This document shows positions 46,056 through 52,111 of a DNA stretch of 61,606 bases, piece by piece. The notes under the pieces are model-generated. The model had not been told where the DNA came from. It did no database searches and saw only the letters and a list, made by a program, of their open reading frames with translations. Position numbers and translations under genes: made by a program. This stretch comes from Frankia torreyi (GTDB taxonomy: Bacteria > Actinomycetota > Actinomycetes > Frankiales > Frankiaceae): the NCBI RefSeq assembly GCF_000948395.1, contig NZ_JYFN01000029.1, positions 1 through 61,606 on the forward strand. Direction: 5' to 3'. The first letter of the stretch is position 1. Each line of letters begins with the position of its first letter.

Positions 46056-47405
46056 GTGCATCTAGATGACGCTTTAAGCGGTTTGACGATGCTTCGGAGG
46101 GCATCGGCTCGGGGCGTCCCGCTACCGCACCAGTCGTTGACGCTGCTGTGGGCGGTGGAGCGCATCGGGGATGGAGTGCGGCTCCGTCGCTGGTCGGAAG
46201 TCCGCGACGAGCTGGCGGCTGCGCTGGTCGCGGGCGGGGTCGAGAACCGTGGACGAGTAGCACCTGAGTATCCCGTGGTGGCGCTGAGGCATTCCCCGCT
46301 CTGGGAGATCCGCGCCAGCTCAGCAGCGCCTGCGGCACACAGCTCGCAGCCACGCCGGTGGCTGGATCGGGAGGATCCCGAGTTTGGACTCTCTGCGCCC
46401 GCCTTTGAACTGCTACGAGACGAGCGCAACCGTGAACAGTTCGCGGCGGCGCTGCATCGTCTCCTTGACCGGGCGGCAGGTCCCGCCGGCCCAGACGCTG
46501 GCTTCTGGGAGATTCAGCCGGGGGTTGTGGTGGTCCGTCGCGACGTCCACGCGCAGTATGGCGGTCGACGGCAGGGCGGAATCGGCCCGTCCCGCTCCAC
46601 TCCCAATGTGCTGCTCTTCACGGACCCGATACGGGGGAGGTCACACGGCTACTTCGACGGGTGGGGCGACGATGGATGTTTCCACTACACCGGGGAAGGG
46701 CAGCTCGGTGATCAGCGGATGGTACAGGGGAATCAGGCCATCCTGGGGCACCGGAGGGACGGCCGCACGCTTCGTCTTTTTCGCGTCGTGCGGGATGGCG
46801 TTGAGTATCTCGGGGCGTTCGAGATCGATCCCGATCGCCCGTGGTACACGAGCGAAGCGCCAGAAACCAACGGGGGGCCGCTGCGGACGGTCATCATGTT
46901 TCGGCTACGTCCGCAGGGGCCGGTGCAGTCGATCGATGCAGACCTCCCTGAGACTCCCACGACGATCAGCAGGGTCACCTCCGTCCCGGTGGAGGCGTCG
47001 AACGCTGAACAGTACGCAATGACCTCTCCGGCTGAGCCAACCACCGCCTTCCGGCGCGAAGCCGCGCTCGTCGGTGCCTACAGCGAGCATCTTCGATCCC
47101 TCGGCCATGAGGTGTGTCGAAAGCGGATTCTTCCTCCCAATGAACCTAGCCCCCTGTTCACAGATCTCTTCGACGAGACGACCGGCGAACTCATTGAAGC
47201 CAAAGGCACCGTCACGCGAGAAGCCGTTCGCATGGCCATCGGTCAGCTCATCGACTACCGCCGTTTTTTTGAACCACCGCCCCGCTTGGTCCTCCTGGTG
47301 CCCAGGAAGCCGCGTCCCGACCTCCTAGATCTGTGCTCCGCTGCAGGTGTTTCGGTGGTGTGGGGATCCGACGCCTCCTCGACGCCGACCTGGACGATCA
47401 ACTAA
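46056..47405 (+). CDS. Putative type IV restriction nuclease: SBD, SRA-like, PD-(D/E)XK
   Basis: This 449-aa protein appears to recognise modified DNA. Residues 8-110 resemble the sulfur-binding head domain of ScoMcrA-type enzymes (PHQSLTLLWAVERIGDGVRLRRWSEV, EYPVVALRHSPLWEI). Residues 165-285 resemble a ScoMcrA-like SRA domain (YGGRRQGGIGPSRSTPNVLLFTDP, HGYFDGWGDDGCFHYTGEGQLGDQRMVQGNQAI). The C-terminus is not the HNH domain of ScoMcrA but a PD-(D/E)XK nuclease: D370 in TDLFDE, E381-A-K383, and a Q-x3-Y motif at Q397-Y401. The expected role is restriction of phosphorothioated or methylated foreign DNA. It stands alone with no modification genes nearby, and its DNA is less GC-rich than its flanks, consistent with transfer. 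GTG 46056 has a weak ribosome binding site. Confidence 0.78.
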   Translation: MHLDDALSGLTMLRRASARGVPLPHQSLTLLWAVERIGDGVRLRRWSEVRDELAAALVAGGVENRGRVAPEYPVVALRHSPLWEIRASSAAPAAHSSQPRRWLDREDPEFGLSAPAFELLRDERNREQFAAALHRLLDRAAGPAGPDAGFWEIQPGVVVVRRDVHAQYGGRRQGGIGPSRSTPNVLLFTDPIRGRSHGYFDGWGDDGCFHYTGEGQLGDQRMVQGNQAILGHRRDGRTLRLFRVVRDGVEYLGAFEIDPDRPWYTSEAPETNGGPLRTVIMFRLRPQGPVQSIDADLPETPTTISRVTSVPVEASNAEQYAMTSPAEPTTAFRREAALVGAYSEHLRSLGHEVCRKRILPPNEPSPLFTDLFDETTGELIEAKGTVTREAVRMAIGQLIDYRRFFEPPPRLVLLVPRKPRPDLLDLCSAAGVSVVWGSDASSTPTWTIN

Positions 47406-49264: not shown

Positions 49265-51595
49265 TTACGGCGTGTAGATGATGTCCCAGAGGCGGGCGGT
49301 CATGTCCGTGCTGGTCGTCGCGAGCAGCAGGCCGAAGGGGGCGAAGGCACAGCTCATCACGGTGCTGCTGTGGCCGGTGAGGGTGGCGATCGCCGCGCCG
49401 GTCGAGACGTCCCACAGCAGGGCCGTGTCGTCGGTGCTCGCCGTCGCCAGCAGCCGTCCGTCGGGGGAGAACGCGCAGCTCTGCGCCGAGCCGGGCAGGG
49501 TCGCGACGGTGCTGCCGCTGCCCGCGTCGGTCAGCCGGGTGCCCTCGTTGCCGGCGGTCGCCAGCAGGCTGCCGTCGGGGGAGAAGGCACAGCCGCCGGC
49601 GAAGTTCGTGTGCCCCGGCAGGTTCATGATGGCCTCCCCGACGGAGACGTCCCACAGCAGCGTGGACTCGGCGCCCGCGGAGACCAGCAGCCGGCCGTCC
49701 GGGGAGAACGCACAGCCGTAGACCGTGCCGCGGTGCCCGTTGAAGGTGGCGATGTTCTTGCCGGTCGACGAGCCCCACAGCCGCACGGTGCGGTCGGTGC
49801 CGGTGGTCGCGAGCAGGGCCCCGTCGGGGGAGAAGGCGCAGCCGTAGACCGGGCCGCGGTGACCGGTCAGCGTCACCGTCTGCCGGCCGGAGGCGACGTC
49901 CCAGATCCGGGCGGTCTTGTCGCTGCCGGTGGTGGCCAGCAGCTTGCCGTCGGGGGAGAACGCGCAGCCGTGCACGACCAGGCTCTTGCGCCCGCTCAGC
50001 GTCAGCGCCACGCGGCCGGTCGCCACGTCCCACAGCCGGGTGCCGTCCTTGCTGGTGGTGGCGAGCAGCGCGCCGTCGGGGGAGAAGGCGGCGGAGGTGA
50101 CGTCGCGTTCGTGGCCCTTGAGCGTGGCCCGCGCGGTGACCTCCACGCGCAGCGACGGGCGGCTGCTGCGTTCGAAGCCGCGCAGGTCCGCGGCGCCCGC
50201 CGACCCCAGCGGCGCCGGTCCCGAGGGCAGGGTGGTCGCGAGCCAGTCGGCGTCGCGGACCGGCGTGCCCGGCTCGGCGTGGGTGTGGATGAGGCTGCCC
50301 GGCGCCTCGACGGCCAGGTCGAACAGGGAGCCGTCGGTCAGCCGGACGCGAGCCAGCACGGCGCCCGGGTCGAAACGTTCGCCCGGTTCGACCAGCCAGC
50401 GCACCATCGTCGCCCGCCCGCCGGGGATGTCCCAGCGGGCCGGCTGCTCCACCGGGTTCGGCCGCGCGGCGGTGGTCCGCCGGGTCGACACCGACGACGC
50501 CCAGGCCGCCGCGCCGAGCACGACGGCGAGCTCCGGGTCGACCGGGGAGAACAACTGCTGGCCGGGCCAGTCGGTGCCGACCCCGAGCCGGCCCTCCAGG
50601 ACGTCGGTCACCACCGGGATGCGTGAGCTGCCGCCGACGAGGAGCACCCCGCCGAGCTTGTCCGGCCCGTACCCCGCACTCTCCACCAGATGCTGGCAGC
50701 AGGCCATCGTGCGCGCCAGGGTCGGCGAGGCGAGCTGGGCGAACCGGTCGCGCTGCATGCTGACCAGCAGGCCGGCCGGGCTGAACACGTCCTCGACGAC
50801 GGCGATGTCGGTGAGCTGGTGCTTGACCGCGCGGGCGAAGTCGAGCAGCTCGTGGCGGGTGCGGCTGGCCGTGGTCTGGTACATGTCGCCGATGCCCGGC
50901 GGGTTGAGCAGCGGCTCCAGCCCCGGGCCGTAGAGGCCGAGGATCTCGTCGAAGAGGATCTGGTCGAGGTCGCGCCCGCCGCAGTCGTGCAGCGCCGCGT
51001 GCGCGATCATCTCGTGCCGGCCGTTCTCGCCGACCGAGACCAGCGCCCCCTCGAACGTCCCGCCGCCGAGGTCGTAGACGAGCATCAGCGAACCGGGCTC
51101 CGGCTCGGCGCCGACCAGCGGCGACCAGGCCGCGGCGACCGGCTCGGCGAGTAGGTCCACGTCGACGAAGCCGGCGGCCTCCGCCGCCGCGATCATGAGC
51201 CTGCGCAGCGGGCCGGCCGGGTCGTAGCTCGCCGGCACGGTGACGACGGCCCGGGTCAGCGACTGCCCGCCGAGCTGCTGCTCCGCCTCCGCCTTCAGGG
51301 CGCCGAGCACGGCGGTGACCAGCACGTGCGCGGGGTAGCCACGGCCATCCAGGGGGACGGCGCCGTCGCGGGCCAGGTCGCGCTTGATCTCGCCGCGGTA
51401 GGCGGCGGGCCAGATCCGCTTGCGGCGTTCGGCGAGGGTACCGACGATCAGGTTGCCCCCGTCGGCGAACACCGACGCCGGCCAGCTCACCGAGCCGCTG
51501 GCGGGTTCCCGAACCGGTTCGATGCGGCCTTCGACGGCAAGAGCCGCCCGGGCACTGCAGGTACCGTAGTCGATCGCGAGGATCGGCTCGCCCAC
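49265..51595 (-). CDS. Hsp70-like ATPase fused to a seven-blade WD40 propeller
   Basis: This 776-aa protein has an Hsp70/actin ATPase at about 1-420: phosphate-1 LAIDYGTCSARAAL, connect-1 LLAEPVAAAW, phosphate-2 LVYDLGGGTFEGALV and adenosine motif GGVLLVGGSSRIPVV. Instead of the Hsp70 peptide-binding domain there is a short beta-rich segment (about 430-500) and then seven WD40 repeats to the C-terminus (CAFSPDGKLLATTGSDKTARIWDVASG and variants, about 41 aa each). Seven repeats can close a propeller. The ATPase motifs look functional, so it may be a chaperone-like switch with a protein-binding platform. GTG 51595 is chosen because the Hsp70 N-terminus begins there and GGGGGT lies just upstream. 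A J-domain protein is encoded elsewhere in the window (16.3 kb). Confidence 0.9.
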   Translation of the reverse strand: MGEPILAIDYGTCSARAALAVEGRIEPVREPASGSVSWPASVFADGGNLIVGTLAERRKRIWPAAYRGEIKRDLARDGAVPLDGRGYPAHVLVTAVLGALKAEAEQQLGGQSLTRAVVTVPASYDPAGPLRRLMIAAAEAAGFVDVDLLAEPVAAAWSPLVGAEPEPGSLMLVYDLGGGTFEGALVSVGENGRHEMIAHAALHDCGGRDLDQILFDEILGLYGPGLEPLLNPPGIGDMYQTTASRTRHELLDFARAVKHQLTDIAVVEDVFSPAGLLVSMQRDRFAQLASPTLARTMACCQHLVESAGYGPDKLGGVLLVGGSSRIPVVTDVLEGRLGVGTDWPGQQLFSPVDPELAVVLGAAAWASSVSTRRTTAARPNPVEQPARWDIPGGRATMVRWLVEPGERFDPGAVLARVRLTDGSLFDLAVEAPGSLIHTHAEPGTPVRDADWLATTLPSGPAPLGSAGAADLRGFERSSRPSLRVEVTARATLKGHERDVTSAAFSPDGALLATTSKDGTRLWDVATGRVALTLSGRKSLVVHGCAFSPDGKLLATTGSDKTARIWDVASGRQTVTLTGHRGPVYGCAFSPDGALLATTGTDRTVRLWGSSTGKNIATFNGHRGTVYGCAFSPDGRLLVSAGAESTLLWDVSVGEAIMNLPGHTNFAGGCAFSPDGSLLATAGNEGTRLTDAGSGSTVATLPGSAQSCAFSPDGRLLATASTDDTALLWDVSTGAAIATLTGHSSTVMSCAFAPFGLLLATTSTDMTARLWDIIYTP

Positions 51596-51784
51596 GGCAC
51601 CCCCTGTCCACGTTTCTGGTGGGCAGATCGTAGCGGCGCCGATCGGGGCAGGCGTCGACACCCTCGTCAAACGGCAGGATAACGGGACCGTCCGTCCGTA
51701 TCTGGTCGCGGCCCGTGGTTGCGCTCCGCCGTGGGCCGTCGTGCGCAGGGTGGCCCGGCCGTGGCCGGTCGGGTGCCGGCGGGT

Positions 51785-51826
51785 GCGCGGTGACCAGGGC
51801 GCGGTGACCAGGGCGCGGTGGCTGGG
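51785..51826. repeat. 14-bp tandem repeat
   Basis: Three units begin at 51785, 51799 and 51813. The first two read GCGCGGTGACCAGG and the third has two changes. It lies in non-coding DNA upstream of the hairpin. Confidence 0.7.
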
Positions 51827-51846
51827 GCGCAGCGCGGAACGAGCGG

Positions 51847-51883
51847 CGGACTGCCGGCCTCCCCCGAAAAGGCCGGCAGTCCG
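51847..51883. terminator. Perfect 14-bp stem hairpin
   Basis: CGGACTGCCGGCCT (51847-51860) and its exact reverse complement (51870-51883) flank a 9-base loop CCCCCGAAA. It lies downstream of the minus-strand gene at 52112 and upstream of the Hsp70-WD40 gene, so it probably terminates the former. Attenuation of the latter is another possibility. Confidence 0.65.
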
Positions 51884-52111
51884 CGGAACCACGCCGGTGC
51901 GCCCCCGACGCGGCACCTGGCCGTCTCGTCCCCCCGACGAACTGGCCTGACCCGTCGCACCGGCGTGGTCCCAGGACTCATCCTGCGGGATGCCGACGGC
52001 GCAGACCATCCCCGATTCATCGGGGGAAAAGCGCCGGCGCAAGCCGTCGAAGTCCGGTTTCCCGCTGGTTTTCCCCCGTCGTCCTGTCTGTCGTCGTCCT
52101 GTCCGTCGTCG

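Follow-up and report, generated by a model that had tools for sequence, protein, structure and literature searches.

The gene at 46056..47405 (+ strand) of the window, which is the whole 61,606-nucleotide stretch of Frankia torreyi DNA analyzed here, raises the question of which DNA modifications would be read, and how DNA would be cut, by a predicted restriction enzyme that has the domain order of ScoMcrA and a different type of nuclease. The protein consists of 449 residues translated from a GTG start, and the start residue is common to the orthologues in the alignment. The closest match to the window genome is Frankia sp. QA3, whose orthologue has 91% protein identity. Comparison with this orthologue shows purifying selection on the whole gene (dN/dS of 0.13), with values of 0.08 for the sulfur-binding domain (SBD), 0.12 for the SRA domain and 0.12 for the nuclease domain, such that the SBD is the most constrained part. 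The initial annotation described the gene as less GC-rich than its flanks, in agreement with a G+C content of 65.1% (GC3 of 0.72) for the enzyme gene and of 72-75% (GC3 of 0.88-0.95) for its neighbors.

Domain structure of the predicted enzyme

The order of an SBD-like, an SRA-like and a nuclease region, previously proposed to follow ScoMcrA, is found both by phmmer and in the predicted structures. A Pfam search of the window protein gives no match, the SAD_SRA family included, and NCBIfam and PADLOC recognize only its SBD or its SBD-SRA part. The NCBIfam model NF045808 (PT-DNA restriction enzyme) scores 23.7 bits over the SBD part only, which is below the curated cut-off of 180 bits.

The sulfur-binding domain

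The SBD (residues 3-130; 46062..46445, + strand) is related to the SBD of SprMcrA (7cc9; phmmer E value of 4e-11, residues 7-123), and residues 20-243 are aligned with the SBD and SRA domains of ScoMcrA (5zmn; E value of 3e-10). In the first full-length model the pLDDT of the SBD is 33-57, and it rises to 87 when the SBD (residues 1-145) is remodeled alone from 30 aligned SBDs. In the latter model, residues 1-142 match solved SBDs: the top seven structural matches are all SBDs (of SprMcrA, ScoMcrA and Hga), with Z scores of 13.6-16.9 (16.9 for 7cc9, 15.0 for 5zmo and 13.6 for 8h0l), and the next, unrelated match has a Z score of 9.9. The SBD-like head noted in the initial annotation thus has the SBD fold, but its nearest solved relative is SprMcrA and not ScoMcrA, the residue at the position of ScoMcrA Arg117 being a glutamine.

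The sulfur pocket is formed by Tyr31, Gln32, Tyr78, Pro79 and Ala82 in SprMcrA (PMC7470945) and by His116, Arg117, Tyr164, Pro165 and Ala168 in ScoMcrA (PMC6224610). In the alignments, these residues correspond to His25 and Gln26 (46128..46133, + strand) and to Tyr72, Pro73 and Ala76 (46269..46283, + strand) of the window protein, in which the five-residue pocket (H/Y, R/K/Q, Y, P, A) is complete; Pro73 is invariant across the 30 SBDs. The change of Arg117 into glutamine was considered as a sign of a dead pocket and was rejected, because SprMcrA, with a glutamine at this position, binds phosphorothioate DNA, and the glutamine is therefore compatible with sulfur binding. Judged from the intact pocket alone, sulfur sensing by the window protein is plausible.

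The pocket is not preserved in all relatives. In F. gtarii and F. tisae it reads S, E, F, P, A (His to Ser, Gln to Glu, Tyr to Phe) and is lost, and the SBD of these species evolves faster (dN/dS of 0.46 versus 0.17-0.19, from few changes), which suggests that phosphorothioate sensing is dispensable in some members. In G413 (L035 1462-2439, - strand) nearly the whole SBD is lost in frame and the SRA-nuclease frame is open, providing a natural SBD deletion. Both observations would fit an enzyme that depends only on cytosine modification, in which the decision lies with the SRA domain, and the SBD serves as a DNA-binding extension of winged-helix type whose sulfur recognition is lost or fading. 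For the window protein this is rather unlikely, as its lineage keeps all five pocket residues and its SBD is the domain with the lowest dN/dS.

The SRA domain

The SRA domain (residues 150-292; 46503..46931, + strand) is identified by profile alignment to ScoMcrA and, weakly, to SUVH5, and by structural comparison of the modeled residues 144-301, with a Z score of 13.4 for the SRA domain of ScoMcrA and of 13.2 for the SRA domain of SUVH5 complexed with 5mC DNA. The candidate motifs of the base-flipping pocket, G-Y199-x-D201 and Y211-T212-G213 (46650..46694, + strand), correspond to the GYND and YTG motifs of SUVH5 in a weak profile alignment (E value of 0.25). In the SRA alignment, Tyr199, Tyr211 and Gly213 are invariant and Asp201 is more than 90% conserved.

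The conservation of the SRA domain throughout the family, with the GYxD and YTG motifs kept, bears on the possibility of an enzyme resembling SprMcrA that responds to phosphorothioate only and to which the SRA domain merely adds DNA affinity. Such an enzyme would agree with SprMcrA having the closest solved SBD and with dndC being found in no carrier of the family, but it is made quite improbable by this conservation, as well as by the avoidance of C5-methyltransferases discussed below.

The nuclease domain

The C-terminal domain (residues 311-449; 46986..47402, + strand) is assigned to the PD-(D/E)XK fold from the alignment, the model and the structural matches. The modeled residues 304-449 match PD-(D/E)XK enzymes with Z scores of 9-11, these being the CRISPR ancillary nucleases Can2/Card1/Cdn1, XisH, AF1548 and EndoMS. 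The earlier assignment to this fold rather than to HNH is borne out by these matches (Z of about 10), and an HNH nuclease is ruled out, no HNH family match being found. The catalytic and conserved residues listed in the initial annotation occur exactly at the positions given there, and they are conserved in 21 diverse aligned nuclease domains: the predicted catalytic residues are Asp370 (47163..47165, + strand), which is more than 90% conserved, and Glu381 and Lys383 of the E381-A-K383 motif (47196..47204, + strand), which are invariant, as are Gln397 and Tyr401 of the Q397-x3-Y401 helix that follows the active site (47244..47258, + strand). Also invariant in these domains are Glu335 of the first helix (47058..47060, + strand), Arg388, Arg392 and Asp400. 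No Pfam family covers this nuclease module, the best match being Tox-REase-9 (0.005, in four of the 21 members).

It is conceivable, though very unlikely, that the protein reads modified DNA but is catalytically inactive or only nicks it, and that its role lies outside defense, for example in regulation or repair. Some of the structural neighbors are repair nucleases (EndoMS, Z of about 9), but the catalytic residues are all kept.

Comparison with known modification-dependent enzymes

ScoMcrA (SBD-SRA-HNH; 5zmm/5zmn) shares with the Frankia enzyme the order of SBD, SRA and nuclease and sequence similarity over the SBD and SRA domains. The Frankia enzyme differs in having a PD-(D/E)XK domain in place of HNH, a glutamine for arginine at the Arg117 pocket position and a different base-contact loop of the SBD, and it has no N-terminal head domain. 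SprMcrA (SBD-HNH; 7cc9), whose Gln, Tyr, Pro and Ala pocket residues are identical, is without an SRA domain and has an HNH nuclease. TagI (SRA-HNH) is likewise an NTP-independent fusion of SRA and nuclease, but its nuclease is HNH and there is no SBD. The MspJI family (SRA-PD-QxK; MspJI, AspBHI and LpnPI), whose known members are cytosine-modification dependent, has the SRA domain N-terminal to a PD-(D/E)XK domain; however, the catalytic motif of MspJI is Q-x-K (PMC12707154), and the E381-A-K383 motif of the Frankia enzyme rules out membership of this family. The Frankia enzyme also has the additional SBD, and its SRA domain is structurally nearer to those of ScoMcrA and SUVH5 than to those of AspBHI and LpnPI (Z of 13 versus 10).

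The combinations described in the literature surveyed are SBD-HNH, SBD-SRA-HNH, SRA-HNH, SRA-PD-QxK and PD-(D/E)XK-SRA. In a literature search that covered mainly non-subscription papers, neither an SBD-SRA-PD-(D/E)XK nor an SRA-SBD-PD-(D/E)XK enzyme was found, and within this literature the joining of an SBD and SRA pair to PD-(D/E)XK appears to be new. HNH is the nuclease of the phosphorothioate-dependent enzymes that have been studied, several of which cut weakly, need manganese or lack specificity (PMC7461809). With a PD-(D/E)XK domain instead, cleavage could use Mg2+ and occur at a fixed distance, and such an enzyme could be used for mapping phosphorothioate and 5mC sites.

Proposed mode of action

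We put at about 0.7 the probability that the gene product is a type IV restriction enzyme working as a single-gene system, with 5mC or 5hmC read by the SRA domain, phosphorothioate read by the SBD, and cleavage close by carried out by the PD-(D/E)XK domain. The analysis establishes the domain order, the predicted folds, the conserved catalytic and pocket residues, the purifying selection, the independent additions of SBDs and the avoidance of C5-methyltransferases within Frankia. From MspJI, TagI, ScoMcrA and SprMcrA (PMC12707154, PMC7897488, PMC7461809) we infer binding, cutting, dimerization and cut position, and the metal is also put forward by inference. In the proposed mechanism, the SRA domain would flip the modified cytosine (5mC or 5hmC) out of the DNA and bind the flipped base, the N-terminal SBD would bind the Rp phosphorothioate in the backbone, and the C-terminal domain, probably dimeric and with Mg2+ as the metal, would cut the DNA near the recognized site. 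The host would require no partner modification enzyme, and its own DNA would have to stay free of the target marks.

Type IV restriction has been implicated in limiting the transformation of the soil bacterium Frankia, in a study in which REBASE-annotated enzymes, mainly Mrr, were considered (PMC6769113); the enzyme described here would be an unlisted barrier to this transformation.

Independent additions of the SBD to an SRA-nuclease core

The open reading frames of all loci were sorted by three profiles into SRA-nuclease, nuclease-only and SBD-SRA-nuclease groups. The form without an SBD is the commoner one, with 32 distinct SRA-nuclease proteins, and this again favors a dependence on cytosine modification only; the Frankiaceae proteins are SBD-SRA-nuclease. 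The 14 nuclease-only entries, some of them partial, have other or unmodeled N-terminal regions. In L010, L018 and L021 the nuclease module is preceded by different N-terminal regions, those of L021 and L018 being EVE-like by eye, for which Pfam gave no confirmation. Plasmid records contain HNH or AAA ATPase proteins with SRA domains similar to that of the enzyme. SRA-nuclease proteins are found on IMG/VR contigs, on plasmids and in Gordonia phage Sidious (gene 63), and the SRA-PD-(D/E)XK arrangement is a widespread core of actinobacteria and viral contigs. In the phage, gene 63 (L152 2992-3888) adjoins two annotated methyltransferases, and its product possibly serves in the exclusion of other phages or in the degradation of host DNA.

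When the SRA-nuclease part is analyzed in a maximum-likelihood tree, the Frankiaceae proteins group as a single clade (100/100), and its neighbors are SRA-nuclease proteins of Streptomyces and of viral origin (90/88). A different place in the tree, together with L063 (98/93), is taken by L069, which has the order SRA-SBD-nuclease. In L069 (1492-2925, - strand) the SBD lies between the SRA and nuclease domains, and a relative with the same order, L154, is 49% identical. From these separate places in the tree it follows that SBDs joined the core at least twice; the sequences indicate N-terminal addition in Frankiaceae and, in another family, insertion at the junction of the SRA and nuclease domains. 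The nuclease swap inside ScoMcrA envisaged in the initial annotation is ruled out by this tree, in which an existing SRA-nuclease core gained SBDs.

The second, independent gain of an SBD in another order (L069, L154) argues that the pairing is useful, and it counts against an SBD that has only a supporting role next to a deciding SRA domain. It is possible, and we propose it tentatively, that SBD and SRA act jointly, with cutting dependent on, or widened by, two marks that have no chemical relation, backbone sulfur and cytosine methylation, and that this logic arose independently two or more times, each time around the same PD-(D/E)XK core and in a different domain order.

The SBDs of L038 (1495-2934) and L039 (493-1932, - strand) are 62-66% identical to the window SBD. 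In L038 the SBD is joined to an HNH_2 nuclease via a Zn-ribbon-like segment, which means that closely related SBDs are paired with different nuclease types in the family. In Protofrankia coriariae (L004, L008) the gene is split within the SRA domain across two contig ends, by a repeated element or an assembly break.

Distribution of C5-methyltransferases and dnd genes

The initial annotation mentioned that the window has no dnd or methyltransferase genes, and for C5-cytosine methyltransferases (PF00145) and dndC this absence extends to the whole host genome, which rules out dnd-linked restriction. Among 35 Frankiaceae genomes, dndC is present in two (G416 and G417), neither of which has the enzyme.

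The enzyme is intact in five Frankia genomes (G000, G399, G400, G403 and G406), none of which has a C5-methyltransferase, and a C5-methyltransferase is present in seven of the eight other Frankia genomes (Fisher p = 0.0047, uncorrected, with shared ancestry ignored and the hypothesis having arisen from these data). These seven include G402, a draft assembly in which the enzyme is frame-broken, and G396, which has a remnant. Family-wide, the fractions are 1/6 and 22/29 (p = 0.012, shared ancestry ignored); an intact enzyme occurs together with a C5-methyltransferase in G412. In the class sample, C5-methyltransferases are found in 7/21 SRA-nuclease carriers and in 205/373 others (two-sided p = 0.07, ancestry ignored), and when Frankiaceae are set aside, the avoidance is weak and not significant (5/14 versus 184/345, p = 0.28). 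The avoidance within Frankia is new genetic evidence for the sensing of cytosine methylation, and it bears indirectly on a possible binding of 5mC or 5hmC by the SRA domain. As it relates to 5mC, it would also fit an enzyme that reads cytosine modification only.

The genomic site in Frankia

At the six Frankia loci examined that contain the enzyme gene, it is flanked on one side by a two-component system (HK, RR) and on the other by the genes of a small secreted-like protein and a dienelactone hydrolase. The latter pair is separated from the enzyme gene in QA3 by about 8 kb that contain an ABC transporter and a regulator. At the orthologous site of the closed genome G396 (L113 5183-10656), the enzyme gene is reduced to a broken remnant of the SBD, and behind it lie genes for a C5-methyltransferase and a Vsr-like endonuclease and a UvrD-like gene, such that a modification-dependent system is replaced by a modification-making one. 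In G405, the orthologous site (L114 7088 to L120 13320) is occupied by about 19 kb of sequence that encodes UvrD, AIPR, a protein with an MZB domain, a GHKL ATPase and two C5-methyltransferases, and with this content it looks like a defense hotspot. The exchange of defense genes at this Frankia site, together with the presence of the SRA-nuclease family on viral contigs, plasmids and phage, is a further argument against a non-defense reader of modified DNA. With an SBD fusion that was made twice and a C5-methyltransferase that is exchanged at one site, the hypothesis of two marks is directly testable.

Elsewhere in the window, the gene at 49265-52042 (- strand) encodes a protein with an Hsp70-like N terminus fused to C-terminal WD40 repeats.
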